Shown here piece after piece: positions 1 through 60,566 of a stretch of DNA of 64,000 bases; the stretch's first letter is position 1, and every line of letters starts with the position of its first letter. The DNA is taken from contig JAVXUO010001690.1 in NCBI GenBank assembly GCA_033065855.1, forward strand, positions 124,001 to 188,000, read 5' to 3'. Source of the stretch: Escallonia rubra. Taxonomy: Eukaryota; Streptophyta; Magnoliopsida; Escalloniales; Escalloniaceae. The position numbers and the translations under genes are program-made. The notes under the pieces were generated by a model. That model was not told where the DNA came from. It did not search any database and saw only the letters and a list, made by a program, of their open reading frames with translations.

Positions 1-1388
1 GGCTGGAAGCCATGAACTTCAAAGCACCCAACGTTATCATCACCGATCAAGATTTGGCAATGAAGAAGGCTATTGCCACCGTCTTCCCAGATACTCGACA
101 CAACTTGTGCACTTGGCACATAAGCAACAAATACCCCGAACGTTTGCATCACATGTACGTAAAGTTTCCAGACATGAAAGAGGATTTTGACACGTGCGTT
201 AGCAAGTCGTTAACGATTAAGGAATTTGAGGAGAGGTGGGAAAAGCTTGGTGAGGATTACTCATTGCAAGACAACGGGTGGCTCCAGCACATGCAGGAGC
301 GCAAAGAGAAATGGATTGGCGTTGACACGAGGAGGAATTTTTCCGAGGGCATAAAAAGGGCGGGCAGGAGTGAATCTATGAATGCCATGTTCGATAGTTA
401 CGTGGGTACAGCTACCAATTTGAAGAGTTTCGTCACATCCGCACAGAAAGCAGTTGCGTCGTTGTTCGTGAAAGAAAGGGCTGCGGACTTTGCAACCACG
501 TACAAACAGAGGAGAAGGTTGCTTGAGACCCCGCTGGAGCTGAACGGTGCCAAAGTCTATACGAAGGAGATCTTCTTGCTGTACCAAGTAGAGCTGCAGA
601 AATTGGGACGGTACTGTATAAACAAGGTGGCAGAAAAGTCTACGCGTGAGTACAAGGTTTATTCGCTCGTGAATGACCTCGTTCCTGAGAAGCTGCGCAG
701 AATGTATACGGTGAGCCACGACACACTGACGAACTCGGTGACATGTGTTTGCAAGAAGTTTGAGTTACATGGCATCCTGTGTAGAGACATTCTGCGCTTT
801 TTCACCCAGAAGAATATCAGGACAATCCCCGATAAATACGTCTTGCCACGGTGGACGAAAGGTGCTAACAGGTTGCACGGTACCATTGCCTTTCCGGAGC
901 ACCCGTATACTGACTTTGAAGAATCGGAGACGTTACGGTATAATCATCTGGTGACGAGTTTCACCCGTTTGTCCGTAAAGGCTGCTGCTTCAATGGTCGG
1001 TTATAAACATCTCCTCGAGGTAGCTCAGCAGCAAGAGCCCATCGTTGACCAGTTGGAAGCTGCTTCAGTCACCAATGCGATTGACACCGAGCCTACGACG
1101 GGGGTATCAGAAGATGACGAGCCGGGGGAGGAAGACGACAATGATATCCGGCCGTTGGATCCAATTATATCGCAAACGAAAGGTCGCAAGAGATCTACGC
1201 GGATGAAAAGCTCTATTGAAACGGCAACTCAACCTAAAAAGCTGCGAATGTGTGCATTGTGCAACAAAATGACCGACCACGACAAGCGGAACCATTACAA
1301 GGCACTGGGGATAAGTTCAGGGGGTTTGCAAGACGGGGAAGAAGGTGACGCCGAAGATGAGGACGAACAAGCTACAGTGGACCTTTAA
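1..1388 (+). CDS. FAR1-related / MULE-type transposase, C-terminal part (5' end outside window)
   Basis: The reading frame is open from base 1; the first Met at base 12 lies inside the domain, so the true start is upstream. About 462 codons remain, with no stop. Numbered from that Met, TDQD (Asp12/Asp14) is the second acidic site of the DDE transposase fold, followed by the usual C-x2-H (C33, H36), and the RSESMN segment (Glu121) is the third. The first Asp is outside the window. Residues 245-259 form the SWIM zinc finger C-x-C-x9-C-x-H, but the final His is replaced by Asp259. A zinc-knuckle-like Cys/His segment with DKRNH follows a basic patch, and the tail is acidic. Family members are MULE (Jittery-like) transposases or domesticated FHY3/FAR1 transcription factors. 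The surrounding repeats favour a transposon gene; a domesticated FRS gene is the alternative. Confidence 0.85.
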   Translation, partial: LEAMNFKAPNVIITDQDLAMKKAIATVFPDTRHNLCTWHISNKYPERLHHMYVKFPDMKEDFDTCVSKSLTIKEFEERWEKLGEDYSLQDNGWLQHMQERKEKWIGVDTRRNFSEGIKRAGRSESMNAMFDSYVGTATNLKSFVTSAQKAVASLFVKERAADFATTYKQRRRLLETPLELNGAKVYTKEIFLLYQVELQKLGRYCINKVAEKSTREYKVYSLVNDLVPEKLRRMYTVSHDTLTNSVTCVCKKFELHGILCRDILRFFTQKNIRTIPDKYVLPRWTKGANRLHGTIAFPEHPYTDFEESETLRYNHLVTSFTRLSVKAAASMVGYKHLLEVAQQQEPIVDQLEAASVTNAIDTEPTTGVSEDDEPGEEDDNDIRPLDPIISQTKGRKRSTRMKSSIETATQPKKLRMCALCNKMTDHDKRNHYKALGISSGGLQDGEEGDAEDEDEQATVDL

Positions 1389-1534
1389 CCGAATGTATAA
1401 GTTTGACATTTGTAATAATTTTCGGAGGGATAATTTTTCCACCGAATACTGGAATTTTTTAAAAATGGACCTATGAGAGGCCATCGAATTAAATCTATAG
1501 TCTTTATTTTTTTTTATTTTTTTTTGTAAGCCCC

Positions 1535-1708
1535 GTCCGCTATACAATGTAGCGGACGTCATCACAGGCAAACTTTTGGTCTTCTTTTATGTCCGCTATA
1601 CAATATAGCAGACGTCATCGATGAAAAACTTTTGGTATTCTTTTATGTCCGCTATACAATGTAGCGGACGTCATCGCAGTAAACTTTTGGTCTTCTTTTA
1701 TGTCCGCT
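1535..1708. repeat. 56-bp tandem array carrying a GTCCGC/GCGGAC palindrome, left segment
   Basis: Three full units begin at 1535, 1591 and 1647 and a fourth is cut at 1708. Each holds a palindrome with arms like GTCCGCTATA and TATAGCGGAC around three bases, then a conserved spacer ending in CTTCTTTTAT. The fourth unit continues at 6370 on the far side of a CACTA insertion. The array starts about 150 bp after the transposase stop, so it is 3' or subterminal to that gene. Confidence 0.9.
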
Positions 1709-1724
1709 CACTACAAGAAAAAGT

Positions 1725-2015
1725 GTCATTAATGACAACTTTTTTAATGACAATATAAAAGTTGTCACTGTTGGTCACCAACTGTGACAAGTATAAAGGT
1801 CGTCATAATTGGTCTGATATAGTATACTATCTAGTGATAAGAATGAAATTGTTACTCAATTTCGTCATTAATTGTTTGACGAAATAATTTTGATGAAGCT
1901 ACAGTGACAACTTTAAAAATGTTATCACTGTTTTAACTATGAATAGTGACAAAACTAAAATGTTGTCACTTTTGAAAAAGGAAAATGAATTTTGACAAAG
2001 TTCTTGTTGTCACAA
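1725..2015. repeat. CACTA left subterminal repeats
   Basis: Many direct and inverted copies of the short motif GTGACAA / TTGTCAC occur within 300 bp of the left terminus. Subterminal motif arrays are the binding sites for CACTA accessory proteins in characterised elements; that role is inferred here. Confidence 0.75.
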
Positions 2016-2020
2016 AAATC

Positions 2021-5000
2021 TTAGGCGGGCTGCAAAAATAATATTTCCCGGTTCCCTTTTCGTTCTAAATTTTTAAGATCTCTAAACACTCCTAAATACA
2101 CAGAGATGTCAGGAGAGGCCATACGATCCCCAATTCCTCTCTCTCTCTCTATCTCACACGTTCTGCTCCATCGACAACCGATCACCCACGCTCTCTCTGT
2201 CTTCGGATTTGCCGTTCGGATTCGGCTGCTCAAATTCTGCGTGTTTTCTCTGGTTCGTAAAGCACACCCACAAACTAACTCCCTACCTTTCTATCTCTCT
2301 CTTCTTTATAATGGAATTAGCGCAATTAAAGGTTTCGAAGGGTATGGTATTGGACCATTGGTGAACATCTAAAGCCACCATAGCAGATACATCCAAAGTG
2401 GCTCCTGAATTGCATCTATGGTGTGCTTGTCAACCGCTTAAACACTCTGTATTCTGTATTATGATACTCAAATGGGCAAGGCTCCTGGAATGAAACCCGT
2501 TTTCGTTTCAGCTATTTAATCTCTAAGACAGATAGTTTGTGGTGTAGATCCTTTTGTTCACCTTGTAGAAGTTATTCTCAAAGTATAGCACAACCTTGGA
2601 TGTTTTGCAGTATTATGCAGTACATTTAGATTATAAACTAATCGGTTTTTTGTTTATTTCTGGGCTTGATGACTAATGTCTTAACGAGGTTCTTTCAGAT
2701 ATAGGCACCTGATTTAACTCCATCTTGGAGTAATAGGAAAATTAAGTGTCCTGTGTTTTGCCAAGTTTTTAATTTATTCAGCTCTTGTATTGTTGTACAT
2801 TAGTTCACTTGCCGTGATGGAAAAATGAGGTACTTCTATTAAAGGGGTTAATGTAGTTCATGCTTGATAGTACTATCTTGTGTATTAAGGATAACATTTC
2901 ACCTGCCGTAGGGAATCTTTTGTCTTTTGGGTATTTAGCAGGTAGGAATGTAGGCCGAAGGTCGAGTTGTGGTTGTTTTTTTCTTTTTTTTTTGGTTGGA
3001 TTTGATCTTAGAGAATTGAGGTTTTTATTGGTGATTATTTAGTTTGATTATAATTATATCAGAATTCGGGATCCCTTTAACTGTTGGCTTGAAGCTGATT
3101 AATGGCTTGGCTAACTAAAGAACATGTTTATTTTCCTCCAATAGAACCAACTAATATGCATGTTACTGTGCCACCAGAAAAAAGACAAAGGTATATAATC
3201 AGTCAGTGGGCTTCGCGTGTCTATCAATTTTGTGTGCAAGGACAGTCATTGTGTAATGATCAATAAATATGGTCCTCTTGCATACCTTTTTTCTTTTTTT
3301 CCAGATATTTATTGCCTTCGCACACAGTCTTATAAGTAGAGAAATGTACTCATTCTACTTGAATTCGTTCTAGATATTGTTGTTACATGACTGCGAACTT
3401 CTGAAGTTTGTCCATTTAGCTTCTATGTTTCGTTCAGGCATTGTTCTGCTTGCGCATAGACCTGCCTACTTTGAGAGTTCAAACTCAGTGTTAGTTTGGT
3501 AGTTTTTAGGTTTTCTACTGGAATGTCTGTCTTGTGTATAGAATGAGAAGCCTTTAAGACTGGTCGTATATTTCATCATCACCAAAATTGGCTTGAAGTG
3601 TCTCAACCGCCTCAATCGTTAAGGAGCATAGCACGGGAATGGGAGTGAATAAAGCATTTAATTCACTCTATTATGTACAGATTTTTCTATTATTTGATGC
3701 ACCACGGTTCATCTAAATAATTCCAATTCTACTGCCTGAAAAAACCAACAGGTGAATCTCATTATAGGAATTATAACAAAGGGACAGAGAGAGAGAGAGA
3801 GAGAGAGAGAGCGGAATATACTGGAGTGATTGGGACTCCAAGCATGGCAACTAATGGTTTGAGACACTGATTCACATAGTTACCAATGGCGAAGATTCGC
3901 CCCATTTACATTTTGTACTTATACGTGTAATATTCTGGAAATAAGTTATGCTAAAATGCTGGGCCTGTAATGTATTTTCTTGGAGACAATTGTCAGAGGG
4001 TTCTGTTCTGTTCCAGTATTCAAGCCTGAATTGACTGCAATTCTTGTCTCATTTATATCTACAGATTGGCATACTAGTTTTCACTTCGTCTTGTTCAGTG
4101 TGATGAGAAGGTTTTGTAATCTGTGAACTATGTAGCTCTTGCATGCCCATATGATTCGTTATGAAACCACTGAGCTTTTGCTCTTTAATTTGAGTAGCTT
4201 TAACTTCACATAGCTACCAATGGCGAAGATTCGCCACTTCCCTGCACCCTCTAATGACTGTTCCAATGGTCCTGTGACTTGCCTATGGGCCCAACACACC
4301 TCTCAAACCAATCCAAAGACCAGGCAAATATAGTTTTATTCACTACATCCAAGGCGAATCTTGTGTATTTAGGCCTAATGGATATAAAGGAATTACATGC
4401 TGTGCAGGGAGGGGGAAGAGGTTTGAAGTACTGAGGTGGGTCAGGCTTAGTCTTAGGTTTATCTAATTATGTGCTCGCTTTGACATCTTAGCTCGGCTTA
4501 GGCTTTAGATGTTTGTCCATGGAGGGGGAGTCAGGACCTAAGATTGAAGGACCTTCTAGAAAAACTTACTTGTACCAGCATTATTGAACTAATTTTGGGA
4601 TTGGGCATCTCACTTTTCTCTCCGGTTAGCAGATAGGTAGTTACCTCTTATAAATCCATTTCGAAATTCATTTTTGATGCTATGCTTTTCTAATTTTCAT
4701 TTTTGATATTTTTTGTGCTTACATGTTGGGTAATGTTGGTATTCAGGGTCGTAATTGCTAAAGCGGTGAGGAACACACTGAAGAAGCAAAGGTAAGCCGA
4801 ATAATTATTGAACCTGATACAACTTGTTTACTCGATTAAAATCCCTGTGTTTATGATCACAAGAGTTTTCTCTTAATGTATATCAATAAATGCTTTACCA
4901 CTTATGATAAGGAGTTGGCTGAGTGTGATTTGGTTATGGAATTGGCTTGAAGTGACAGACGGTGCATGTTTCGAGACAACAAGCCAAGCACATAGATGTA

Positions 5001-5580
5001 CTCTCTGCTTTGAGGAAATTCTACCCAAAACAATACTGATGCTCTCATTTTCTTCTCTTCAACTCAAGCCATCGTTGTACTGTAAGTCCATCTCTCTTTA
5101 TCTCCACAAATTGATTAAGAAAACCCACCCACTTCAAGATTCGTGGCCCTGCCTTCTTGTTTGGGGTTCCTGCTTGTACCTGCTTCCTCATTTGTTCATA
5201 CACCCTATTTGCCCCCAAGTAGGACACAAACATTCATACATGTGGTCCACAGATTTTGTAATCGTTACTATCTTTGGCTATTACAGTGGGTTTCAAATAT
5301 GCTTTCTAGTAGATCTATAATTCAATCTGGTTTTTGAATACACAATTGTCTGCATTCATGGTATTCATGGTAGAAGAACATCAAAATACTCGCTTATTGT
5401 TTAAGAGGTTTCATGTTGTATGGTGGATTTGCTATGTTTTAGGCAGTAGTTGCTACACAGGCTTCTCTCTAGTATGGCTATAGTTGTCTTATTTTTTAGT
5501 GTGATGATCAGGTTTTTTTTTTTTTTGTGCAGTGAAAAACTTTACTGAAGACGAAGATGCAGCAACATCCTTGTCCTAGA
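2021..5580. other. CACTA core: AT-rich DNA with exon-like fragments, no intact gene
   Basis: Short open segments bounded by splice-like sites occur at 3102-3190 (starts ATG GCT TGG, ends before GTATAT) and 4748-4792 (preceded by TTCAG, followed by GTAAGC). Both fit the same splice phase and keep a common frame, which suggests captured host exons. The following segment near 4913 loses frame. A GA microsatellite lies at about 3785-3811. A 31-bp sequence containing the palindrome GGCGAAGATTCGCC is repeated at 3871-3901 and 4205-4235. I do not recognise the encoded peptides. Confidence 0.4.
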
Positions 5581-5784
5581 GTTATTGTACTCGGTGATTC
5601 TTAGAGTTATTGTACTCGGTGATTCTGTAAATGGAACCCTTTTAGTTTATATTACCATTAAGAAGACTCTTGTAATGGATGGTATCTTTATAATCGATGG
5701 TTTTGAATTAAATTCTCTTACATTAAAAGTTTATTCTCGTTATTTTTCTAGAAGAATAATATGTACAGAGAATAAGATTTCATC

Positions 5785-6360
5785 ACATGTGGCAACTTAC
5801 AATTGTCACCATTACCGTGAAGAGAAAAGATTGTGATTGTCACTACATGAGTATATGTTCGTCACTAACGTGTATGGTGACAACAGAAAAAAAAATTAAA
5901 ACAGTGACAACTAGAAGTTGTCAATGAATGTTCCAATAGTGACAACACAAATAATTGACACAAATGGTAATTTTGGCAACATAAACTTTGACGCAAATGA
6001 AAATTGTGACATCATTGTCGTCGTCATGAAAGAGAAACAGTGACAAGATATCTTGTCACTGGATATCAACCCAAGTCAATTGGGAGGGTTATTTAGTGAC
6101 AACATGCCGTTCTAGTGACAACTTTTTAGAACATTAAGTGAGAAAAAAGTTGTCACTAAATGTGATGAAAAAGTGACAACTTTAATGTTGTCACACGGCT
6201 TTAAGTTTTTGTGACAACTTGTTTGATGTCGTCACTTATAGTCTTTAGTGACGGGCCTATAGTGACAACTACTGTGACAACAAATTTTCGTCACTATACT
6301 AATCAGTGACAACTTTGCATTTTTTTGTGACAACTTTCGTTGTCACTAATTATCAATTTG
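5785..6360. repeat. CACTA right subterminal repeats
   Basis: This is a dense field of GTGACAAC and TTGTCAC motifs in both orientations, mirroring the left end and running to the right terminus at 6369. It is longer than the left block. Confidence 0.75.
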
Positions 6361-6369
6361 CTTTTAGTG

Positions 6370-6444
6370 GCTATACAATATAGCGGACGTCATCGCAGAA
6401 AAACTTTTGGTATTCTTTTATGTCCGCTATACAATGTAGCGGAT
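6370..6444. repeat. 56-bp palindrome array, right segment after the CACTA insertion
   Basis: Bases 6370-6388 complete the palindrome begun at 1702-1708, and one further unit follows at 6422-6444. Together with 1535-1708 this makes five units before the CACTA element inserted. Confidence 0.85.
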
Positions 6445-6621
6445 AACTATATCATATTATATATATTAATCAAATCAAGCAACCAGTTGTTACCAGTCCG
6501 CTGAGGGCACTCTCTCTGTCTCGAACATCTAGCCCAGGCCGCTACTCCATCTCCGGCGACCCACATCTCCGGTGACCCACAACTCCGGCGATAAACCGTC
6601 CTCCCCTCAACGCCGACCTCG

Positions 6622-7091
6622 ATGGCTTCTGGACCGGCGACCCCCTACGATTATATTGGCAACTTGCACCTGGCAAACAAACACTTTTTCAAAGTCTTGA
6701 TGCCGGGGTTTGAGAATGAACTTGTAGGCCATCCCTATTTCTCGTGTATTTTCGTGTGTTAAAAGTTTGATCTTTTGGTTAAAAACTAACCTATTTTTTG
6801 TATTGTGTTTGTTAGGACATACCGGAAGCCTTGACCAATCAATTTACAACAATTCATGACAGTGCAAGATTATATAGCCGCAATGGGGCATGGCAGGTTG
6901 AAATCAAGCTGAAGCTCGGCCGACCCCAAAAAAAGCAATTCGCAGAGGGTTGGAACGTCTTCGTGCGCCAGCATGGCCTCGAACTCGGGGACTTTGTAGT
7001 GTTTGAACACCTTGGGTGGTGGGATTTTCAAGTTGTAATCTTTGATCGGAGCACTTGTGAAAAAAATTCTTTCCCCCAATGTGAACCCTAA
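6622..7091 (+). CDS. Small single B3-domain protein (REM-like), two exons
   Basis: Exon 1 is 6622-6723 (ATG, 34 codons), with a GTAGGC donor. Exon 2 is 6816-7091, after the acceptor TTGTTAG, in phase 0, giving 125 aa. The protein opens with a short leader, then the B3 motifs in order: FFKVLMPGF, IPEALTNQF, a GAWQVEIKL strand, W-N-V-F-V, then GDFVVFEHLG and FQVVIFD. This is nearly a complete B3 DNA-binding domain of the reproductive-meristem type and little else, so it should bind DNA without an obvious effector region. It lies between palindrome repeats in the accessory island, about 180 bp after the repeat at 6422-6444. It could be a captured host gene or a transposon accessory gene. No disruption is seen. 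Confidence 0.75.
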
Positions 7092-7383
7092 TTTATTATT
7101 AATAAATTAATTTATGTTCTTTTTCATTGTGTTTCAAAAAATTTCCGCGCTTAATTGTGTCGTTTGAGATTCCCTCGATATATTGAGATCGTTGATTGTG
7201 AATCGTACGTTATTTATTGTTTATCGATATTGAGATTGTTGATTCTGACGCCAAAACAAGTCTTCGGGGCGCCAATTTATTAAAACAGCTACTAAGCTAC
7301 AATGCGACTAAAACAAGCCTTTGGGTGCCAATTTATTAAAACTGCATTACGCTACAACGTCTAGCTCTACTACATAGCGGACA
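7092..7383. repeat. B3 gene 3' flank with a two-copy tandem duplication
   Basis: Within 7253-7361 a segment of about 55 bp starting AAAACAAGTCTTCGGGG is followed by a diverged second copy starting AAAACAAGCCTTTGGG. Half of a GCGGAC palindrome sits at 7371-7379. No coding potential seen. Confidence 0.55.
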
Positions 7384-7748
7384 TAAGGCCTCCGCTTAGG
7401 CTGGGGTTCGGGAAGGTCGGAACTAAGTGTCTGGTTCGTGCCAACCATTTTCTGGTCCAAGTTGCAGACAATGATCTGCTGCACCACTATGACGTAAGAT
7501 CCTCAGCTGTGCACCTTTCTGCTTGGTCATGTATTCTGCGGGGATGTCCGCTATATTATATAGCAGACATAGATATGAGAAAAAAAAACTAAGTGTTGGA
7601 GACTTTCCCTCTGCGGGGCTGTCCGCTATACTATATGGCGGACCTATGAGAGAAAAATGGTTGTCTGAACCTTGGACCAGAATATGGTTGACAAGCACCA
7701 GACACTTAATTCTGACCTTCCCGAACCCCGGCCTAAGCGGAGGCCTTA
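7384..7748. repeat. Long inverted repeat (about 88-bp arms) enclosing two palindromes
   Basis: The arms are 7384-7471 and 7660-7748. The right arm reverse-complemented matches the left with about ten differences by eye. The 188-bp spacer contains two palindrome copies (7546-7568 and 7621-7643), each preceded by TCTGCGGGG. A transcript of this region could fold into a long hairpin. It lies directly 3' of the minus-strand gene ending at 7771. Confidence 0.8.
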
Positions 7749-7770
7749 TAGCCTTAGAAGAACTCGATCT

Positions 7771-8169
7771 TCAGTCATCTTCATCTGAAACTGGAGCATC
7801 GGAAACATTTCCTTCTTCGAAGCTCATGTTCCAGTATACTTGTGCTTCATTGTTGTTGCCATCTTCATGTGCATCACGTGCCATACGACGTAAGTTATGC
7901 CTACTTTGACGAACTCTCATTCTATTATTTTCCTCACGTCTTCGATGCAGTGCCCTTTCAAACTCCATGTGCGTAATTCGAGGCATGTTGATTGCCTTTT
8001 GTCGAGGTATGGGTATATTCATGTGCCGTGAATCAGCTACTAAGACCTCATATTCATTCATCCGATAAGACCATTCTGCACGTAATGTATTAACATAGCT
8101 TGATGAGTAACGCAAACTTGGACGCAAAGAATAGTGAAATTCATCTTCGCCCGCCCAGTAACGACCCAT
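7771..8169 (-). CDS. Small charged protein of unknown function, paralogue A
   Basis: This is one intact 132-aa exon with its ATG at 8169. The N-terminal third holds an aromatic LR-x-EW-x-YR segment. The middle is basic (Arg-rich, with P-x-P-R-Q-K and EENNRM), and the C-terminus is acidic, ending SDEDD. It aligns through most of its length with the protein at 8586-9020: shared LR-EW-YR, E-x-E-x-L, P-x-P, SR/PR, ENNRM and LA/MA positions in the same order. The two genes are divergent and share a 416-bp upstream region. I do not recognise the family. Strongly basic and probably helical, it might bind nucleic acid, but that is a guess. Confidence 0.6.
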   Translation of the reverse strand: MGRYWAGEDEFHYSLRPSLRYSSSYVNTLRAEWSYRMNEYEVLVADSRHMNIPIPRQKAINMPRITHMEFERALHRRREENNRMRVRQSRHNLRRMARDAHEDGNNNEAQVYWNMSFEEGNVSDAPVSDEDD

Positions 8170-8585
8170 TGCTTAAAAAATATCTCGTGGAGTATATGAC
8201 ATTCCCAGAGTTGTTATGAAATTGGGAGTATATCACTCTATGCCCTTTGCCCTACGTGCAATGCATGTACTTATATATACTTTGAAACGGGACCACTTTA
8301 TGAGATGTTACAGGTTCAACTTTATGAGATGTGACAAGCCTCTGCAATAGACTAGAGACTTGTCTATTGCAGAAGAGACTTGACTTGTCACCAAAGACTT
8401 GTCAACTTTATGACACGGGCATGTTATTGTCTCTAACTATTGTCATCTTCAATGTCCAGATACTTGTCTTGTTACCAGAGATAGGCAGGCTATTGTGTAG
8501 CTATCATGCCCGCTATTGTGTATGTGTGTGTGGGCTTATTTATATATGTTAGCCATGCTCTTCGCTTTAGAACCGCCTAAGTTAA
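8170..8585. promoter_or_regulatory. Shared upstream region of the divergent gene pair, with hairpins
   Basis: This is the only sequence between the two start codons. At 8341-8373 a perfect 12-bp inverted repeat (arms TCTGCAATAGAC and GTCTATTGCAGA, 9-base loop) is present. CTTTATGAGATGT occurs twice (from about 8297 and 8321), and GGCATG and CATGCCCG near 8418 and 8503 form a second looser inverted repeat. A bidirectional promoter role is inferred from layout. Confidence 0.5.
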
Positions 8586-9020
8586 ATGGCAGGAGTTTCT
8601 GGGAGTTCTAGTATGCGGGGACGTGAGACTGTGTGGTTGTTGTGTGAAAGGAACAACGACTACAAAGAAGTGAAGTACACGGATCCCAGAGAGTATTATT
8701 GCGGTTTACGGAGAGAATGGGCATATCGAGTTAAGGAATCAGAAGCGCTACACCAAGATCTCACCACGCTGAGAGCACCTGTGCCGCAACGTCGTTCACT
8801 TACTATGTCGCGGCGTAATGTTAAGCAGTGTAAGAAAGCTGTGCGCCATATTCGTATGGAAAATAACCGGATGTTACTGCTTAGAAAACGATTTTATATG
8901 CTTCAACTTGCGAAAGAAATGGCCGAGGTTAGTGGGAGGCAGCTCAAATCAAACGAGAGAAACAATATTTTAACCAATGATCAGTACTTATCTGATGAGT
9001 ATATGTCAAATGAAGAGTGA
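8586..9020 (+). CDS. Small charged protein of unknown function, paralogue B
   Basis: One intact 144-aa exon starting at the ATG at 8586. It opens with a Ser/Gly-rich leader, then LRREWAYR, an E-x-E-x-L helix, P-V-P-Q-R-R, an SRRN segment, a basic helix with MENNRM, and an acidic Asp/Glu tail ending SNEE. It is clearly related to the minus-strand protein ending at 7771 but differs at most positions, so the duplication is old and both copies have kept open frames. Function unknown; no catalytic motif or membrane segment is visible. Confidence 0.6.
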   Translation: MAGVSGSSSMRGRETVWLLCERNNDYKEVKYTDPREYYCGLRREWAYRVKESEALHQDLTTLRAPVPQRRSLTMSRRNVKQCKKAVRHIRMENNRMLLLRKRFYMLQLAKEMAEVSGRQLKSNERNNILTNDQYLSDEYMSNEE

Positions 9021-9165
9021 TATATATATCTCTTCCTACTGCATGTTAGGATTTCATTCCAACCGGCACTTATCCACATGTCATTCTAATTAGCGAATCC
9101 CGTCTTTTGAAGCATGTAAAATGTTGGAAATTTATGTTTCTAACTACATCCGTCATACTATAATG

Positions 9166-9604
9166 GGGTAACTAGCATGCCTAAGGTGCAATGAGCAAAA
9201 AAAAAGTGACATAAAAAATTACAACATTTTTCGCAAGCTATGAATTTGGCGCTAAAGTGTGCGCGAATAGGCCCTTCATAGGAAAACCAAAAAAATAATT
9301 TGTCTCGTTTTTCACCGAAATTCATAGAAATGGGCTATATAGCGTGCCTAAGGTGCAATGAGCAAAAAAAAAGTGACCAAAAAAATTACAACATTTTTCA
9401 CAAGTTATGAATTTGGCGCTAAAACGTGCGTGAATAGGCCCTTCATACGAAAATCAATAAAATTCTTTGTCTCGTTTTTCGCCGAAATTCATAAATGGGC
9501 TATATAGCGTGCCTAAGGTGCAATGAGCAAAAAAAATGTGACCAAAAAACTTACAACATTTTTCGCAAGTTATGAATTTGGCGCTAAAGTGTGCGCGAAT
9601 AGTT
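9166..9604. repeat. Tandem array, unit about 165 bp, nearly three copies
   Basis: Each unit starts GCCTAAGGTGCAATGAGC, runs through an A-rich stretch and GAATTTGGCGCTAAA, and ends with TTCATAGAAATGGGC or a close variant. Copies begin near 9178, 9347 and 9510; the last is cut at the next array. No coding frame. Present only here in the window as far as I could see. Confidence 0.8.
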
Positions 9605-9610
9605 TTTTTT

Positions 9611-10230
9611 GCCAAGCAGAAGGAAGACTCCCCAACACTTAGTTTTTTTCGGCCCTATCTACGTCCGCTGTACTATATAGCGGACAACCAAGCAGAAGGA
9701 AGACTCCCCAACACTTAGTTTTTTTTTTCGGCCCTATCTACGTCCGCTGTACTATATAGCGGACAGCCAAGCAGAAGGAAGACTCCCCAACACTTAGTTT
9801 TTTTTTCGGCCCTATCTACGTCCGCTGTACTATATAGCAGACAGCCAAGCAGAAGGAAGACTTCCCAACACTAAGTTTTTTTTTCGGCCCTATCTACGTC
9901 CGCTGTACTATATAGCGGACAGCCAAGCAGAAGGAAGACTCCCCAACACTTAGTTTTTTTTTCAGCCCTATCTACGTCCCCTTACTATATAGCGGACATC
10001 CAAGCAGAAGGAAGACTCCCCAACACTTAGTTTTTTTTCGGCCCTATCTACGTCCGCTATACTATATAGCGGACAGCCAAGCAGAAGGAAGACTCCCCAA
10101 CACTTAGTTTTTTTTCGGCCCTATCTACGTCCGCTATACTATATCGCGGACAGCCAAGCAGAAGGAAGACTCCCCAACACTTAGTTTTTTTTTTCGCCCT
10201 ATCTATGTTATAGCGGACAGTCCAACAGAA
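9611..10230. repeat. 77-bp tandem array, eight units, each with a GTCCGC/GCGGAC palindrome
   Basis: Units begin near 9611, 9687, 9766, 9844, 9922, 9999, 10075 and 10153. Each reads GCCAAGCAGAAGGAAGACT, then a CCAACACTTAG block, a T-run, CGGCCCTATCTACG and the palindrome. One copy near 9975 has lost part of the left arm and the last has lost its left arm. The spacer shares CTAAGTGTTGG/AGACT words with 7590-7610, so the arrays are of one family. The array ends about 240 bp beyond the 3' end of the Ulp1-containing gene. Confidence 0.9.
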
Positions 10231-10465
10231 ACAGTCTCACTTGGTTTTTACACTTTGTTTCCCCCTGGTGAAAGCAAATCACACAGAACAAATAAAACAC
10301 TCAGCTCAACAACACAACGATATCAGTGAATCAAATCAATCGCATTCAACAACGATCACATCTCAGTCAACACAGATGAAATCATCAATCGCATTCAACG
10401 ATAAGATTCAAGAAGTTTAAGGACAATTAAAAAAGTGAATATAATGTTATTATACGCAAACATTG

Positions 10466-13400
10466 TCAATTACACGGATTTACAATAAATCTAATAGCTC
10501 TAGGCCGGCCATTGATAATTTGCCAAGCCATCATATACCTAAAGCAGTCTATGCATTCTTGGCTCCAGACGGTCTTCTTGAGGCTCTCCGACCGACAGAT
10601 GTAATCCATGTACATGCAGACGAAGACGCCGCAGTCCGAGGAATTAAGTTGCCTGGGCCTAGTCCTCTTCAATCGGAGAACAAGCTGCGTATCGCCCGGT
10701 GCCCTCCCTCGGGTCTCTCGAGAACGCTCTCTATTGACCATGGCAGCAAATAGATTCTGCGAGAAACAGGATAAGCATTAAACATTTTATATGCTTAAAT
10801 AATAAGCATTAAACATTAAACATAGCAAACATAATAAGATTAATCAGTTCTACAATATGCAAGTTACAATAAGAAGTAAACAGGATCTTACCATGGTATC
10901 CAATATCCCTAAGCCTCGGTACATTTCAATCACACCAATCACGGGGGTATCATCATAGAGACTGTCGAGGACTGATACGGTATTCGTTACCGGTTCATAG
11001 CAAATCAAGAACCAGTGGGCAATCACTATAGCTGGGATTAGAAACACATCCGCCACACTTGCGCTCTCTGGACTCGGCCGAGCAAGATATGCGAGTAGGT
11101 TAGAGGACGGTCTCCACTTGAGCTGGGCATTCGCCTTTCTCGCCTGCTTCCTCGCCTTGTCCCAGTCGTTATACTCTTGTACTAGCATGCCATGAAAGTA
11201 AGCATCGAGGATAAAAATGCGCGGACCGTAGTTAGGCTGCTCCCGACTCCTTTGCCGCAGAATTTACACGTAGTGCGAGATGACAAAGTTGTCTAACCAA
11301 ATTTCCGGCGCCAGCGAGGACAGTTCTCTCCACGAGACATGTAATCCAAGCCATGCGGGTGATCCACGTCATACGATGCTTCGTCTGGGGGGGGGGGGAG
11401 GCTCGCTAAAATAACAGTGATGGATTAGGTCATGTTTATGCGGCTTCAGGGGCCTGGTTGGATGCCCTTTCGGATATTGCCCTCGGGGGTCGACCGGTTG
11501 CTCTTGCCCTCCGCCGGGGGGCAAGAGCAACGGAAGAAATTGGCCTCCAACCAACGGATCGGCCGGCTGATAATCCCCTTGGGGGGGCCCGGCCGGCTGA
11601 TAATCGCCTTCGGGGGCCCCGGCCGGCTGATATTGCTCGCCGGCCATTTCTTCCGCCGGCTGATATTGCCCTTCGGGGCCGCCAAGTGGTCCCACCCACG
11701 GGACAATGGGCAGTGCCTCGTTGAAACCGTAAGGCCATTCTTGCGTGACTTGACTCTGAGAGAAGGGTTGGGGTTCTGGGAACAAATCGAAGGTCAGGCC
11801 GCTGTAATCGGCCCACGACGCTTGAGCATGTCCCATCCCCGGTACAGAGGGACCACCAACTCCCTGGCTCACCCCTGAAGCTTGCCCGGAGGGATCAACG
11901 TTATACGGGCTGGCGCCCGTATAACCCATTCCCGGGCTGTCGACCGAAGACTGTCCCGATGCTTGCCGCACAAAATTCCCGCAGCCTATAGCCAGTGCAA
12001 TATCCTGTTAGCAAAAATCCTCGCCCATTGCGCTCATCAGATCCTTTCGCTCACTCAACTTCTGGAAGAATGCAAGCGAGGCATTAACCTACATCCAAAG
12101 AGATAACAAATAAGTAACTTTAATCAGACATTTATATTCAAGACAAGTTGGGCAACTTACGAGATTGTATGCCATACGCTCGTCGATCTGACCCCTAGGC
12201 GCATACCTCGCCCCGCGTTCAAAGTTCACTGGGGCTACTCTCCTCCGCGTGATGCGGGAGTACCACTCATCGTACTCCGCGATGCTGATAACGGGGTCTG
12301 GCTCCGAGACGATGGCCGCCAGTGTGTCCTGCCAAGAAGTCCAGAGCTCTAGTTCGGCCGCGCACAATTCTTGTGCATTGGCCTTGCCAAACCGCCCGAC
12401 ATCCGGTGGGTCCCTGTTAACCCTCATATCTGGGGCACCGGCTGGCAAACCCTGCTCCAACTCAAAATGGCGCATTGCTCGGTCTGGCAGCTGCCACTCT
12501 GCGACCTTGAAGTGGATGAGGGGTGTGCGCTGCAACCCGGAGAGCGTGAAGACGAACGACTCTTCTACCCGTCACGCCAAACGTATGTACGGTGCCCAAC
12601 GCAATTGGCCCGGAGATAGGCGGTCGAACTCCCCTCGATAGAACGTGATGTTGTGATGGGGATCGACTCTCCTGCGGTAGTGGCTATTCTTCCGGCTGTA
12701 CTCCCAAGCACGCAACCGAGGCCACACTCTATCGGTTCCATCCCTATGCGTCGGTGAACCGGGAGCAAGGTGTTCATAAGACCACACCTGAGAACATGGA
12801 TAAATTATATTTATATCGTCGATTCAACAAAAGCAAAAACAAAAAAAATAATAACGAAGACAGGATTTATATGATATACCTGCAATAGCGAGAGACATGC
12901 ACATATGGCTTTGGAGTCGGGCCTCGTTGCCTTGTGCAATGCTCGGTACATATACGAAAGAACCGCTGCACCCCATGCATAATCTCCAACCTCAGCCAGG
13001 TTACCCAACAACGGTAAATATTTCACGCTGGCCGTGTTCTTCGACGTCGTTGGGAATAAAATTGCCCCCATCACCCACCAGAGGAAGGCTTTTGTGTAAA
13101 GCACAAGCTCACGGCCCGTATAGTTTTCCGGCAAAACCCCGTACGTATCTACCAACCACTTCAACTTTATACCACCACTGCTAAATTGATCCTGGGGTAT
13201 CGAAGTGAGGAAGTCCCTAGCGGTTCTCGTCTTCGTTGCTTCTGACGGAGGAGTAATTACCGGCCGCCCCGTCACTGGCAACTCTAAGATGAACCCTACA
13301 TCTTCTAGGGTAATTGTCAGCTATCCGAGCGGAAAGTGAAACGTATTCGTTTCACTTCCCCACCTCTCAACAAGGGCACCTATCAAGGCCCGGTCAAGCT

Positions 13401-13699
13401 GTTGAAATATCTGCCCATGCGTGAAAATCTCAAACCCAATTCCACGCAGTATCCTCTTCTGGGCGGTGTTCAGTTTCCACGATACTATATCGCGAGATAC
13501 TTCTACGGTGTTGAGAAGTTCTCTTTCCTACGAATTAATAAATACAATTTAAGCATAACAAACGGTATATACAACGTTCGTAAGCGATAGAAAGTCGATA
13601 AATAATGTATCTTACTCCACCATCCCATATGAGCGTACTGATATGGTTGGCTTGGTCGTATAACACGGATGGGTCTTCAGGTCCAGGGTTAAATTCCAT
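10466..13699 (-). pseudogene. Plant mobile domain + Gly/Pro-rich linker + Ulp1 protease fusion, broken by five stops
   Basis: Five exons fit with consistent phase 0: 13699-13616, 13527-12880, 12787-12161, 12088-10892 and 10756-10466, about 948 codons. Exons 1-3 give the plant mobile domain (MAIN/PMD-like): DPSVLY start, ALVERW-x3-T-x-FHFP, LTITLEDVGF, VLSYMYRAL, WSYEHLAPG, VAEWQLPDRAMRHF. Exon 4 begins with a short helix, then a Gly/Pro/Gln linker with QYQPA-type repeats. The rest is a C48 (Ulp1/SUMO-protease-like) domain with His in IAHWFL, Asp in VLDSL, and Gln and Cys in RQLNSSDCGVF. In-frame stops lie at 13321-13323 (TAG), 12572-12574 (TGA), 12008-12010 (TAA), 11369-11371 (TGA) and 11264-11266 (TAA). 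Reading frame and splice sites are otherwise preserved. PMD and Ulp1 domains are both common passengers of plant MULEs. Confidence 0.85.
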
Positions 13700-14130
13700 T
13701 TTTTGCAACTGAAATTATGGAAAAACCTTCTCAGTTTGGATTTTACGTTTTGGATTTTGATAATCGCTCGCAAAAATACGACGCTAGCACATGCATAATA
13801 CATATAACGCAAGCACATGAATGATGCATACAATGTTAGCATATGTATATGGTATATGTATAAATATATATACATATACGGAATCGTATTTTACAAATGC
13901 TTGCACAAGAACAAAAACATACATATATAAAACGCAGTATTCATCACAATTGAAGATTACCGACAAAAAAAAGTGTAAATTTTGTGAACTTACGCGATCG
14001 ACTTAGGGTATTAAAGGTGTTCTTAAGACGGAATTGCGCCGATATGCTTGCCAACGCCGCTGGAAAATTTTGTGAGTAGAAAGAGTGGTGAAGAGTGTCG
14101 TAGTTACTGTCGTTTGAAAGTATATTGAAC
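13700..14130. other. Upstream flank of the PMD-Ulp1 pseudogene
   Basis: AT-rich sequence with TATA/TACATA runs (13795-13925) that could have served as promoter for the minus-strand gene. No coding frame with support. Confidence 0.35.
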
Positions 14131-14440
14131 GTCCGCAATACAATACCGCGGATGGCTATTATGTCCGCGATACAATATCGCGGATGGCTATAGCGTCCGC
14201 TAAACTGTGTAGCGGACACTGTTGACGTGACAGATAAGGACAAGATAATTGTCATTGCTGAAAAAACTGACGGGACAGGGGCTGACAGGTGTCAGCCTAG
14301 GGACGTCCTCTACACAGTATCCCGAACGTCTTTTTGCTGTCTCCCATCAGGACTTTAATGTCCTCCGCCATACAGTATAGCGGACAGGCGCGGAGGCGCA
14401 ATAAGGTAAAAAAACCGGTCCGCCATACTGTATGGCGGAC
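14131..14440. repeat. Cluster of five diverged palindromes
   Basis: Copies lie at about 14131-14153, 14163-14185, 14195-14217, 14364-14384 and 14418-14440. The first three are spaced 32 bp apart and separated by GGCTAT words. Stem base pairs differ from the other arrays but usually keep pairing: GCGATA with TATCGC, GCCATA with TATGGC. A separate palindrome GCTGACAGGTGTCAGC lies at 14281-14296. Confidence 0.85.
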
Positions 14441-14554
14441 GACTGACAGCTTTCGAAAAATGCGCGATCTGGGCCGTCCATCTTTCGGGATGGACGGTCA
14501 GATCGCGCTTGCAACTTCTCCTATTTTGCCCACGCTCTCAACAGATTAGCTCCC

Positions 14555-14557
<3 letters not shown>

Positions 14558-14609
<52 letters not shown>
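14558..14609. repeat. (TA)n microsatellite
   Basis: An uninterrupted TA run of about 52 bases. Immediately after it, 14613-14641 forms an inverted repeat (TTATAAGGCT and AGCCTTATAA). Confidence 0.95.
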
Positions 14610-14613
<4 letters not shown>

Positions 14614-14641
14614 TTATAAGGCTAATACGAAGCCTTATAAG

Positions 14642-16507
14642 TCTATTTGTTGTCCCATCACGTCGCCTACACCGATGATTGACAACCAATAGCATTTTGC
14701 CACTCTATCACAATGGTGTGGTCGTCAAATGTTTGCACCAAATCATCTATTGTACTGTTGTGATTTTATTTGTTGAAAGTTTTAACAACCGTCCAATTTT
14801 AAAGGTCATCAACACTTGGAATTAGGTAAATAAGACTCCCTCCCTCTTATAATATAATAATAATAATAATATGTTTGTGATAAAAAAAAAATCTAATATG
14901 ATGGTGCGAAAGCACATTTGACTCCTGGTGAAATGAACTTCGGGTGAAATAAGAACTCTGACTAGAATACGAGTAAATACATCATATACAACATTTTCAA
15001 AGCAAAAATACAACACTTGGGTTGTTGGGATCAATACTAGGCCCGACTTGCTTTCGGCCTCTGTGGGTCAACCCCGGCAAACCCGTGGAATGGGTCAGAA
15101 GTGGGTTACTCATATCAACAAGGATCAGAGTGGGTCACGTGACTCGACCGGGTCCAAATGGGTCGCTAATAATAATAAGAATAATAAGAAAGGACCCAGA
15201 TCAGACTTCACACTTCACGAATCTGGTGTCTTCAACTGTGACAACCACCACCATTCGCGACAGAGCCTCTTTCTATCACCCGAGTGGCTCTCTTCGTCGC
15301 CGACAGTCCTCTCTTCGACGCTAGCAGTTCCTCTCTCCACCGTCGGCAGCCTCAGTTCCCATTTGTCTCGCTCCTAAATCCTAATATCTCTCCTCTCAAA
15401 TCAAACATTATTTCTATTGATAAAAATTTTGTTGGGTTTATGTAAATGGGATATTCGTAATTATTCCTCTTTCTGTTCACGTAGAACCGTTATATCTGTA
15501 AAATTATAACCGTCTATCTCTCTTAACTCATTCTCTTATCCATCGGTTCTTAATTTAGAGATCTGAAATCGAGGGGCTAATAGCCCAAACCTGCAATATC
15601 TACCGGAGCATAAGTACCTTTGCTGAATATTATAATTCAATCTCTAACAATACAAATATCACACTATTAGACAAGGCTAAAGATAAGGCCGAGAGTCCCA
15701 CGTCCATCCGATTTATTAACTTCCTCCATCTAATGGCCACAAACCCCCACCTCAGATAATGCCTTCCACCTCCGACAGTCTCTTGTGTGAGGAAGGAGAT
15801 GTTTTCAAGGTGAGCGATAAGCAAGCTCATAAGAGACTTTATGAACTTTTAAGATACTATAAACTAAAAATCTCTGTCATTTTTATACAATATTGCATAA
15901 ATCAATAAACTGAAGATAGTATTGACACTTCCATGTTGCTAGTGTCGCTCGAATGCGTTAACTTCATGCATAAGGTGTAACCAAATAAAGACCCACTCAA
16001 AATGCAAATAGTCAAAATGATAGTTCCGATAGGACGCCACAACGAAACTTATACAAGGTCTTATCGTCGTCTACTCTCTGAACAATCCTTCCACAGAAAA
16101 GGAGAGTGCGGTAATAAATATCCAGGGAATAAAAGTACAAGCCAAAAAAGCCACCAAAAAGAAAAAAAAAAAAGGAAAAAACGAAGAAAAGTGAGTACAT
16201 AAATCAATTATCATGCCATTATCTCCACGTCCTTTTCATTTTTACTACCGTTTCATGGGAAATATATATGCAATACTAAAAAAGTCCAAGCTAAAATGGA
16301 GAGCTATAATTCAAAGACTAGAGGTGTACCTACTTGTCAAGTCTCTACTGTCTTGTCCAATTCTAGTCCAGTCGAATTAAAAATCGATGTTTGTCTGCAT
16401 TCATGTGCGGGATGGAGTTCTGATGGATTCCTATAATTTGGCATGCCCCAAATATTTGTGGGTGTAAAATTTTTGCTGATTTTATTGGATTCACTTAAGT
16501 GGCCTAC
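14642..16507. other. Intergenic, no supported gene
   Basis: There is an AAT-rich stretch at 14850-14875 and a moderately GC-rich block at 15040-15375 with overlapping short frames but no domain I recognise. An A-rich run lies at 16150-16190. Confidence 0.4.
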
Positions 16508-16857: not shown

Positions 16858-18182
16858 AAGTGACTTCTCTCATCTTCTGGCATTCAGACCACCACCATTC
16901 GTGGCCACAACACCATCGCCACCGTAACCAATCCCACACCCCACCACTTCGTACGATGGCCCACCACCGCCCCAAAGTCTACATCCTATCATGTGGAATG
17001 GATTCATTTGCGTTAGCTGTACGTGGCCGCATACATTAACTGCTGACCTTGACCAATGTAAGCTTCAAAAAATATGTGAAAATCGTTGGATTCTTTTCTT
17101 TCCTTTCTTTTCTTCTTCCCTGCACAAGGACTAAAATTGTGTCCTAGGCCACACTTATTAGTTCGATGAATAAAATTAAGTACATTTAGTAACTAAAATT
17201 CAATATCTATGGAATTTGAGGGCAATAATTTATCTCGGGCAAACCAATTATTTTCTATTACAGTTTAGTCGAGCACAGTGTGTACCTTTGTTGACGAGAA
17301 AATACTCATTATCGTCGACTATATGTGCCGAGAGTAATAGTTACCTTTCAGGCTTTAAGCATAAATGAAGTTAAGGCTTCTTCCACTTGCAAGAGAACAT
17401 GTTCATTACACTACCAGGTCCATAAAAAAGTTACGTGTGGAAAGGTTTTATTACATTGACCTTCCCTAAAGTAAGTAAAAAGTACGGTGCTCTCCATTGC
17501 TTTTTTTAAAATACAACTTTCTTTCCTTCTAATTCGGTGTCGGTTTCCTTTGAGAGTGTTGACTAATGGTTGTTTGATAAAATAAAATTTAAGCGCTAAA
17601 AGTCTAAACGCTAATTAGTACAATTTAAAACATATAAGCGACTAAAGTTTTATCGCTGAAAATTGTTCAATTTTACAGATTAACCAATGATTAACCAAAA
17701 GCAGATGTTTGAAAATTGTTCAATTTTATAGATTTCTCCATTTGCCAAAACTTTTTATGGATGCATTACACAATTTTCTTCTTGCCAAAATTGGCATTGT
17801 TGGTGGTGGTGGCGAAAATGTACTGATGATGGTGGTAGCAGTGGTCGCTGCAGATATGATGTTGGCAATTTTGGTGGTAGCAACAAGAGGCAACACAATA
17901 GTCATTGTGACTGTTGTAGTGTGGTGGATATGAAGATGATTTTGGCTGATATGGAGGTAATGGCAGCGATAATGGCGTGGTGTATGTGGCAGTGTCGTTA
18001 TGGTGGTGCTGGTGGCCATGGTGGTGTGGTGATGGTAGTGGCATCAGTTAGGAGGTGGAAACCTAAAAGAGATATTGAAAGACATTTCTAGCATGGTATG
18101 CACGACAAAGATGTATGACCACTGAGTCAAGAAAATACTTCTTTAGACCAAAACTAAACCAAGGGCCAAGGAAGCAGGGGGA
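16858..18182. other. Intergenic with GGT-rich low-complexity block
   Basis: 17795-18050 is an imperfect GGT/GAT triplet repeat that opens spurious frames on both strands. 17575-17660 has GCGCTAAAAGTC and GACTAAAGTTTTATCGC words typical of decayed MITEs, but no pair of ends could be fixed. Confidence 0.4.
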
Positions 18183-22726: not shown

Positions 22727-23099
22727 GTATGTTTTCATACCCTTTTCATCTGATCGCAATCATTTGTCTAGTTTCTTCATTTTTTTGAAACTGTAATGGA
22801 TGATTTTTAACAACGAAACCCTAATTTACGTCTCTGTTCTGTTTAATCACATGCATGTTGAGTCTCTGTTGTATGTAATCATGGCATGTTGAGTGTATGG
22901 TTATTGCATGTTGAGTGCATGGTTTTTGCATGTTCAGTGTATGGTTGTTAAGAATGTTTAGTATATGATTATTGCATGTTATATGATTATTAGCAGAAAA
23001 CCCTAACTAGAGCCCTACTTAGAGCCCTAATCGAAAGCCCTAAACCGAAATCCCTAAATTGAAGCCATAATCGAAAGCCCTAAAAGCCCTAAATTGAAA

Positions 23100-23765
23100 C
23101 CCCAATTGAAAAGTCAATTGAAACCCTAATTGACTATTTAATCAAATTGAATTCCTAATCGACACTGAAATTGAAGCCCTAATTCAATTTCGTTTTCGAA
23201 ACCCAATTGACAACTCAATTGAAACCCTAATTGACTACTTAATCAAATTGAATCCCTAATCGACACTGAAATTGAAGCCCTAATTCAATTTCATTTTCGA
23301 AACCCCAATTGACAACTCAATTGAAACCCTAATTGACTACTTAATCAAATTGAATCCCTAATCGACACTGAAATTGAAGCCCTAATTCAATTTCGTTTTC
23401 GAAACCCCAATTGACAACTTAATTGAAACCCTAATTGACTACTTAATCAAATTGAATCCCTAATCGACACTGAAATTGAAGCCCTAATTCAATTTCGTCT
23501 TCGAAACCCCAATTGACAACTCAATTGAAACCCTAATTGACTACTTAATCAAATTGAATCCCTAATCGACATTGAAATTGAAGCCCTAATTCAATTTCGT
23601 CTTCGAAACCCCAATTGACAACTCAATTGAAACCCTAATTGACTACTTAATCAAATTAAATTCCTAATCGACACTGAAATTGAAGCCCTAATACAATTTC
23701 ATTTTCGAAACCCCAATTGACAACTCAATTGAAACCCTAATTGACTACTTAGTCAACTTGCCCAA
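23100..23765 (+). repeat. 102-bp tandem array in the transposase intron, about six copies
   Basis: Units recur at 23150, 23250, 23352, 23454, 23556 and 23658 and are built from sub-repeats of the words CCCTAATTCAATT and AATTGACAACTCAATTG. Upstream, 22995-23110 holds imperfect CCCTAA words. Confidence 0.9.
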
Positions 23766-58063: not shown

Positions 58064-60566
58064 TAAACTTTTAAATTTTCAGTTCACAAAATTATCATAA
58101 TTAGTAAAAAAGACAGACTTACCTCTCATAGAAAAATAAAATAATCCAACCCACCACAGCCTGTTCAGACCAGTTTACCATCGCCACACGGCTCCCTCCC
58201 ACCATGGCTCGATGGCGCTACACCACCACTACCCTGCCACCAATATAAAAAACGAACCCACAACCACCGATCTACACCATAATCATCATTGCTTTGTCAC
58301 CACCATAAAAAAATGAACCTACCACAGCCAATCTATATCACGACCATAATAGTTCCGGCGCCACCACCATAAACAAAACCACCATCGTCAATCACCACAG
58401 CCACTATTGCCCCGTTCATACCACTAAAAACGAACTCACCACTGGCGATCTACACGGATCTGTAGTGGGAAATGGAATGGGTTTGGTGGTGTTATGGATA
58501 TGTGGCTTTGGGTCTGTGTGGGTGGGGGGGTAAGGGGCATACGCTAAAGGGGATAGCAATCTTAGCTCTTTTTTTTTCTATCGCCTTACTATCACTTTTG
58601 AAATCCGGTAAGAAGAACTTGTCCGTTACGTATCAGGGATGGTAGTAGGTCACGGTGGGGAGCTAGAGTCTTTTCAATTTGTCGATCTCTACCCACCCAA
58701 CCCCGGCGCGCTCTTACGGTCGCTAATTAGATTAAATATTAGATCTGTAGCTCTTCTTACCATGGATGATCTCTGAGATTTGATTTGTGGGCAATAATAA
58801 TGGATTAAAGGTCCGTGAAGTTTGTCAACATAGTGATGGTGTTAGCTATCGGTTGTTCACTTATAGTTAGAGGTGGTGGTATAGTGATGGATGGTTGTTG
58901 GCCAAGACGGTTGGCTGGTTATTCGCTATGGTGGTATGGTGTTAGATCTTTGTTAGCCAGGTGGTTTGCTGGTTGTTGAACATGGTACTTGGTTCGTTGG
59001 TTGGTTATGTAGGGAGGGTGGTGGTTAAGAGGCATACGTCGACGGGGATATCAGCATTAGCAGGCGTCAGTGAGACATACAGATTTGTAGTTTAGGTCCG
59101 TGTTCGTGTGAATAGGCATAAGGTAGTTTGGTCTTTGGTGGCAGTGGTGGGGGTTTTGACGACGGTTGTGATGGGCCATGGTTCAACGGCAACGGGCGTG
59201 GCATGGTAAAGCGAGGCTGGCATCGATGGTGGTTGGTCTTGAGTAAGTGAAAGATTTCTTAAGGGACAATTTTGGTAAATCACAATAAAAAGTATGATGT
59301 TGTAACTTTTTCTAACGGTTTCCTAATGATAGGGAGCGGATCAAGATCCTCTACTATACAATAGAGGTGTCGTACAACATTTAGTGATAAAAGATTGTGA
59401 CTGAAAGTATTTTGCCGCTGTTACTGAAATTTAAAATGATAATTTTTTGTAGCTAAAAAACATTTAGGGGCATTTTTTTGGGTACAACAAATCCCTTTGC
59501 TGTACAAGATCCTGACCTGTAAGGAGCTTTGTGTGAAACTATATCGCAAGGGACAACACGTAATTTTAATAATCGGGGTACAGCCCGCCTATAATTTCAA
59601 TCAAATCTCAAGAGTGCGAAGTGTAATAAAACCTTAAACTTTTAACATGTTAAAATAAAATTTGTCAACATATCAGTGTTGGGCTTCTTTCTAACCGAAT
59701 TGAAATATACTGTAGTCACTTACACGTTACAGCAAATGTGTTACTTCATAAAGCTGAATTAATATAAATTCACCACTTTCTTACTTTTTTTTCTAAATTA
59801 CAGTAACTTGTAGGTATTGTGGCACGTGATGGTTAAGCTTTTTAAGGGTTTATAACAATTGACCAAACACGTTCTTACAGTGTCAAAACCATAATCACTT
59901 AAATTTTCCGTTATGTTACATGAATGAAAGTTGTTTTTGCTGAGTAGTAGAAACATTTCATTATAAAAAGTTTTACAAAGTCGTCCCAGCTGTTTGGCAA
60001 CTACCCAACTACATAATCAACTTAATATTTAAAGTTACAAGTTCTCTACATCAGCAAAGTTAAATCTACAATTATCTAATTCCGACGCAATCCAATTTAT
60101 AGATACTCTAAATAACGACAAAGTTACGTTCGGGCGGTAAGAAACCATATTATACAAACCTAAAAATAGGAGTCCTAAATTCAGCACACGACTATTGTAA
60201 CACAAATACAGAGCTCCATAAACAGTATCCAAAAAAAAAAAATTCAGAGCTCCATATGCGAACTAATGGATCAAAAGCAAGCACAAATTTCGAGGAGACC
60301 GTTCGATTCTGTAACAAGCTGATATTACAAAGGATGGGCACTAAGCCAAGAAGACTAAGTTGCTACATTTTCCAACCGCTAGACTGAGAGTAATACAAAA
60401 ATCAGAGCCCAGGATAGCACACTAGAGAACCCGGACTCAAGAACTATTCCCTATCAACAGCTGCTTTTGGTTCGGGCATTAGGCCCGCAAATAATACAGT
60501 TCTCTATAAGTTGGGCAAAAAATAGAATGGTGCGAATAACTTTCTGAAGCTTAATGGCATCAAAAT
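58064..60566. other. Intergenic and TAAC 3' flank
   Basis: 58130-58450 is CCA-rich and 58790-59260 is GGT-rich, both low-complexity triplet-like sequence with spurious frames. 59340-59515 has repeated AAGATCCT and TAGTGATAAAA words, perhaps a decayed MITE. No gene recognised. Confidence 0.35.

Follow-up and report, generated by a model that had tools for sequence, protein, structure and literature searches.

A 64,000-nucleotide stretch of the Escallonia rubra genome (contig JAVXUO010001690.1, positions 124,001 to 188,000; hereafter the window) contains most of a Mutator-like transposable element in which a 23-base palindromic site, with arms GTCCGC and GCGGAC set eleven bases apart, is repeated. 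This site probably lets a protein made by the element recognise its elements. The 16,486-bp stretch that bears it, extending from window position -1931 to 14554, is one Mutator-like element with exons for a FAR1-type transposase and for B3, Ulp1 and plant mobile domain (PMD) proteins. Copies of the site lie at both ends of the element and in three intergenic stretches, one following the transposase gene, one separating the B3 exon from the next open reading frame (ORF), and one located between the second small ORF and the Ulp1 exons. We assign a probability of roughly 0.55 to a two-fold site on duplex DNA that is read by an element-encoded dimer, most likely the FAR1-type transposase, the copies at the ends defining a transposition substrate and the internal arrays serving as regulatory docking places.

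By scanning the plus strand of the window with the 23-mer GTCCGCTATACAATATAGCGGAC at a threshold of at least 16 of 23 letters, 22 places were found within positions 1535-14440, and a single weak match was found elsewhere, at 59349 (16/23 letters, 5/10 pairs). These numbers agree with the initial annotation, which had counted about 20 copies in the same interval and noticed none in the other 49 kb. A stricter test requiring at least 10 of the 12 arm letters gave 17 sites in the element and one chance-like match outside it, at 17025. The three contexts originally described, a 56-bp array, a 77-bp array (with periods of 77/78 bp) and a 32-bp-spaced cluster, are all present, as are the mismatches reported for some copies, many of which have unpaired inner positions. 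Additional palindromes form a right-end cluster at 14305-14440 and a pair at 7546/7621, and further copies lie left of the window at positions 7183-7505 of locus L009, which correspond to the left end of the element. Within the window the palindromes are confined as stated, and the supposed accessory island is itself one transposon, other copies of which have the arrays and ends in common over the extent compared. The pair at 7546/7621 is enclosed by an 89-bp inverted repeat (7383-7471 and 7661-7749, 90% complementary).

Exact pattern searches over the 566-Mb genome, with the backwards pattern as control, returned 19,579 copies of GTCCGC-N11-GCGGAC, a genome-wide total irrespective of location inside or outside elements, against 2 in the control, and the palindrome therefore exceeds chance. 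Spacers of 0-10 bases between the same arms summed to 160 copies (control 40) and those of 12-22 bases to 124 (control 107). At the loci examined closely, which are largely near-identical copies, the spacer was 11 in 190 of 193 such pairs with spacers of 0-40, and it is constant although the array periods vary. The rigidity of this spacer fits two protein half-sites on duplex DNA, as do the mismatches tolerated at inner positions and the near-invariant letters A8, A10, T14 and T16.

The site is also found in element ends chosen by their tip. The tip TATATGGGAGCTGATC occurs in 839 + 903 = 1,742 exact genome copies (control 0; the query itself required TATAT before the tip). Among 100 tip matches listed, 24 ends of 251-255 bases each were picked by hand, by tip alone, and an end was counted as site-bearing at 9 or more of 12 arm letters. 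The site was present in 22 of the 24 ends, and all 12 arm letters occurred in at least one site of 19. Its first copy starts +112 to +116 from the tip in 19/24 ends, and at +96 in L066. Furthermore, a 6-11-6 mask was moved over all offsets of an alignment of 23 ends (including L063, L084 and the right end of the window's element, but neither L075 nor L081) that differ by a mean distance of 0.28. Sites 1 and 2 scored highest (0.928 and 0.913) against a flank mean of 0.712, the conservation at the inner site positions being 0.715 and 0.767. Together with the fixed genome-wide spacer, these top-scoring arms in diverged ends support the earlier claim of constraint on the palindrome itself, mostly by evidence beyond what the initial annotation could draw on. 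In addition, TA-bordered miniatures of 134-238 bp contained two sites each in 7/7 cases, whether met through the palindromes (L028, L029, L032, L034) or through the tip alone (L062, L075, L081); the seven may be mutually related and are not seven independent events. The shortest contain little besides a pair of tips and a pair of sites; this composition is the strongest argument that the site at the ends would be required in cis for transposition.

In the proposed mechanism, two half-sites of roughly GTCCGCNAYAY would face each other at a fixed distance on duplex DNA and be read by a protein dimer encoded by the element family. Since the sites occur in ends and miniatures, the FAR1-type transposase is indicated as the most likely reader, and at the ends the site would mark DNA, including that of the miniatures, as a transposition substrate. 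The internal arrays would provide further docking places for the same or a co-encoded protein acting on element expression or silencing, a regulatory role perhaps similar to that of the VANC anti-silencing factors of VANDAL elements. We infer the protein binding, the identity of the binder and the effect of binding alike from the sequence. Domains of the FAR1 type represent the ancestry of the FHY3/FAR1 light regulators. The FAR1 domain of FHY3 is described as binding DNA (PMC6000157).

Several observations weigh against this transposase-centred interpretation. The FHY3/FAR1 site given in the cited part of that source, CACGCGC, differs from the half-site found here, and long internal arrays are superfluous for end recognition. 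A sister copy, L040, whose ends are about 75% identical to those of the window's element and whose PMD exons are about 82% identical in protein, carries an array of 11 copies and, in its end, four sites; over the 19.8 kb compared it has no match to the transposase. It likewise has none to the small ORFs or to the B3 exon, and the presence of sites without a B3 match favours the transposase over B3 as reader. Sites are absent from two of the 24 tip-picked ends, L084 and L063, the sole match in the latter (9/12, at +198) not being counted as a site. In the conservation scan, tip offsets 1 and 6 scored nearly as high (0.909) as the sites, the first 11 bases of the tip being the selection criterion. 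The tip-to-site distance varies among the miniatures (30, 50 and 116 bp; L081 at +30, L075 at +50). Within the window's own family (36 right ends), the outer arms did not differ significantly from the flank (P 0.10) and the inner positions were, if anything, more variable; conservation within one family thus failed as proof of selection and does not show the constraint claimed earlier. As to the two ends without the site, L063 holds other imperfect inverted repeats (CTAACYG..CGGTTAG), and L084, which shares the tip but lacks any GTCCGC site, shows CTTCACCGT-N11-ACGGTGAAG at +118, with equal arm-to-arm spacing and other letters.

Another explanation, possible but doubtful, is that a VANC-like anti-silencing factor, either a PMD/Ulp1 product or the B3 protein, recognises the sites; it would bind the non-coding motifs of its own family and remove DNA methylation. 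The reported targets of VANC21 and VANC6 are likewise short motifs that recur in terminal and intergenic DNA, where they form tandem arrays differing in length (PMC5735166). More generally, short element-specific motifs are repeated in the terminal and intergenic non-coding stretches of VANDAL elements, in arrays that grow and shrink (PMC5735166; PMC10398659), and tandem motifs in non-coding parts are also found here. However, the VANC21 motifs described in the cited passages are 9 bases long, non-palindromic and in one orientation, in contrast to the two-fold site (PMC5735166), and VANDAL ends are described as degenerate, whereas long inverted ends with a 23-bp two-fold site are present here, miniatures included (PMC5735166; PMC10398659). 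Moreover, the VANC-associated domain DUF1985 reached only E 0.08 on a PMD exon, below the cut-off, in a scan of single exons, and gene-less miniatures retain the sites. The B3 exon shows no purifying selection, with a ratio of nonsynonymous to synonymous changes of 1.25 (10 copies and the window), and the B3 protein as reader is weakened by this ratio and by the sister copy without a B3 match. Recognition by the transposase and by a VANC-like factor may both hold together.

The initial annotation had left the choice between a dimeric protein site and a DNA or RNA hairpin. Of these, the protein dimer on duplex DNA is favoured by the fixed 11-base spacer, and action of the palindromes as hairpins (cruciform, small-RNA source or terminator) appears very improbable. 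Both a hairpin and a homodimer site predict in-step changes of the arms, and such change across lineages is likely, though short of proof. The outer arms are almost invariant and therefore uninformative in this respect. When the homologous first site was compared in 22 ends (20 sampled and two of the window's element), positions 7/17 were paired in 16/22, against 8.2 in shuffled data (P 0.0004; one per lineage, 9/13 against 5.3, P 0.02), and positions 9/15 in 15/22, against 9.9 (P 0.003; per lineage, P 0.09). These changes, and the location of the arrays 3' of genes, would suit a hairpin. Against it, a loop would tolerate changes in length, which the spacer does not; the sister array of L040 has only 8/11 pairs in 10 of its 11 copies; positions 11/13 were paired no more than in shuffled data (13/22 against 11.5, P 0.42); and an Rfam scan of window positions 1-16000 gave no match.

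The proof of in-step change is limited by the behaviour of the individual measures. In a covariation test on 21 distinct rows with five measures and 500 shuffles, three measures beat 500/500 shuffles (cells paired, 89.2 against 85.0%; cells changed on both sides, 15 against 7.7; score, 0.200 against 0.134). The two rated least misled by relatedness stayed at shuffle level (pairs changed on both sides, 3 against 2.9; further pair types, 9 against 10.1), and for this reason the change is not regarded as proven. Covariation was not significant among 21 site types, 16 from the window family and 5 from the sister copy, in which 7/17 was paired in 11/21 against 8.9 shuffled (P 0.19) and the inner pairs in 75/105 against 71.6 (P 0.13). 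The three paired variants quoted initially exist, while pairing of stem changes beyond chance is seen at the homologous first site but neither within the window family nor by two of the five measures. The 50 genome sites listed gave a mixed result, with P 0.39 for 7/17 and P 0.0004 for 9/15, the latter becoming P 0.06 on 25 distinct sites. Genome-wide, the counts at 7/17 were 12,354 for T-A, 677 for C-G, 628 for C.A and 604 for T.G; the resulting odds ratio of about 22 is inflated because the sites are related. Of 50 C-G sites listed, 41 are CATAC[A/T]GTATG, and scaling by the other nine gives an odds ratio of roughly 4 by our own estimate.

That the sites are functionless and have spread only because related elements and arrays were copied is very improbable. 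All copies are related, conservation in the window's family does not exceed that of the flank, and two of the five covariation measures stay at shuffle level, as this explanation would have it; however, the arms stand out from their own flanks in the diverged ends, and the spacer stays constant across arrays of differing period. Least probable of all is that the elements captured a host site, bound by a transcription factor or acting as an insulator. Such an origin would suit a location in the ends, where Mutator elements have their promoters (PMC3310237), but no good copy lies in the other 49 kb of the window, and retention of the site in miniatures without genes speaks against it.

No literature combining at least three of Mutator-like, B3 domain, Ulp1 and plant mobile domain was found. 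Among the matches listed for publications containing fragments of the motif, none concerned a plant transposon, as judged by title, and other literature surveyed by title or abstract opening described no such site. To our knowledge, few families of plant Mutator elements have known recognition sites for their transposases or anti-silencing proteins. CACTA (Spm) elements carry many short subterminal TnpA sites near their ends, and resemble the present element in having many short copies of a protein site there, but belong to another superfamily, have another motif and lack long internal arrays such as those found here. The MuTAnT and AutoMuTAnT elements of Medicago truncatula are Mutator-like, insert in (TA)n microsatellites and comprise many short relatives and a larger element with a mudrA-like transposase (PMC4486113); the TA runs at both ends of the present element indicate the same type of insertion. 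In contrast, the MuTAnT tip is GGGGTTTGCTAGAACA in the cited passages and GGGAGCTGATC here, so that the family tip is not shared, and AutoMuTAnT has one ORF, with no palindromic site array described in those passages (PMC4486113). In maize MuDR/Mu, the site of the transposase MURA also lies within the long inverted ends, but is described as a motif of about 32 bp belonging to the ends, whereas here a strict 6-11-6 palindrome occurs in both ends and interior (PMC3310237).

A more far-reaching proposal, which we consider rather unlikely, is that a whole radiation of plant Mutator-like elements, miniatures included, has one 23-bp two-fold operator in common. A single kind of element-encoded dimer would both mobilise the elements and, at the internal arrays, prevent their silencing; lineages would shift 7/17 and 9/15 in step, and rare ends such as L084 would have exchanged the half-site letters within an unchanged geometry. 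Sequence alone yields a sharp 23-bp candidate site of fixed geometry that exists in about 20,000 natural copies, together with naturally occurring minimal substrates of about 135 bp and a few candidate proteins. This raises the questions of which element protein reads the site, whether binding by FAR1-type domains is dimeric, and whether transposition and avoidance of silencing depend on one and the same site.

The association with FAR1, PMD and Ulp1-type transposon genes expected initially is borne out by Pfam domains of the same element (Table 1). The 5' part of the transposase ORF lies at positions 8058-9000 of L009 (Pfam FAR1 4.3e-14, MULE 1.6e-14), and the MULE-type transposase domain (PF10551) is above cut-off on both parts of the ORF. 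As expected for a Mutator-like element, long terminal inverted repeats are present; they measure about 270 bp, and their alignment, with the TA run counted, is identical in 291 of 317 columns. The left end, located in the 9 kb preceding the window, begins with GGGAGCTGATCCGTTG, and its mirror copy ends at window position 14554. (TA)n adjoins the element at both ends and would hide a target-site duplication of about 9 bp, as is typical of such elements. Of 2,896 candidate right-end copies, 40 were scored, at 92-100% identity. The majority sequences are open in all eight exons examined. By crude counts, the ratio of nonsynonymous to synonymous changes is 0.58-0.90 for the transposase, the second small ORF, Ulp1 and PMD (8-12 copies and the window) and 2.07 for the first small ORF, synonymous changes being few in the latter and in B3. 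The small ORFs and the B3 exon had no match in NCBIfam, and a PDB sequence comparison gave one match (E 0.39), which provided no lead.

Table 1. Coordinates of the Mutator-like element and its features in the window.
Feature	Position	Strand	Remarks
Mutator-like element, right 14,554 bp of 16,486	1..14554		left end at window -1931 (C2127:122069)
Transposase ORF, 3' part	3..1388	+	Pfam MULE 4.1e-11
56-bp array with three palindromes and the left part of a fourth	1535..1708		
CACTA-type element inside a palindrome copy	1709..6369		target GCT duplicated (1706-1708, 6370-6372)
Remainder of 56-bp array, right piece of split palindrome and one further copy	6370..6444		
B3 DNA-binding domain exon	6816..7091	+	Pfam B3 6.3e-9
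Two palindromes between B3 exon and following ORF	7546..7643		
Small ORF	7771..8172	-	no Pfam match
Small ORF	8586..9020	+	no Pfam match; about 33% identical to ORF 7771-8172
77/78-bp array	9611..10218		palindromes at 9663-10151, degenerate copies at 9975 and 10196
Two Ulp1-protease exons	10466..11263	-	Pfam Peptidase_C48 8.6e-7; other exon 0.0038, below curated cut-off
PMD exons	12089..13320	-	Pfam PMD 8.8e-30; second exon 7.3e-5, below curated cut-off
32-bp-spaced cluster, three palindromes	14131..14217		
Right terminal inverted repeat	14287..14554		sites 14305 (degenerate), 14363, 14418

A second palindrome, of 47 bp, lies in the terminal repeat at 14462-14508 (GCGCGATCTG..CCGTCCATC-loop-GATGGACGG..CAGATCGCGC); it recurs in most of the ends sampled, where its arms show paired changes, for example CCATCC/GGATGG and CCACAG/CTGTGG. 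The inserted CACTA-type element has the ends CACTACAAGAAAA and CACTAAAAGCAAA, GTGACAAC-like subterminal repeats and close copies elsewhere in the genome. Outside the Mutator-like element, a 102-bp tandem repeat occupies window positions 23096-23760, with 6.5 copies and 96% matches.

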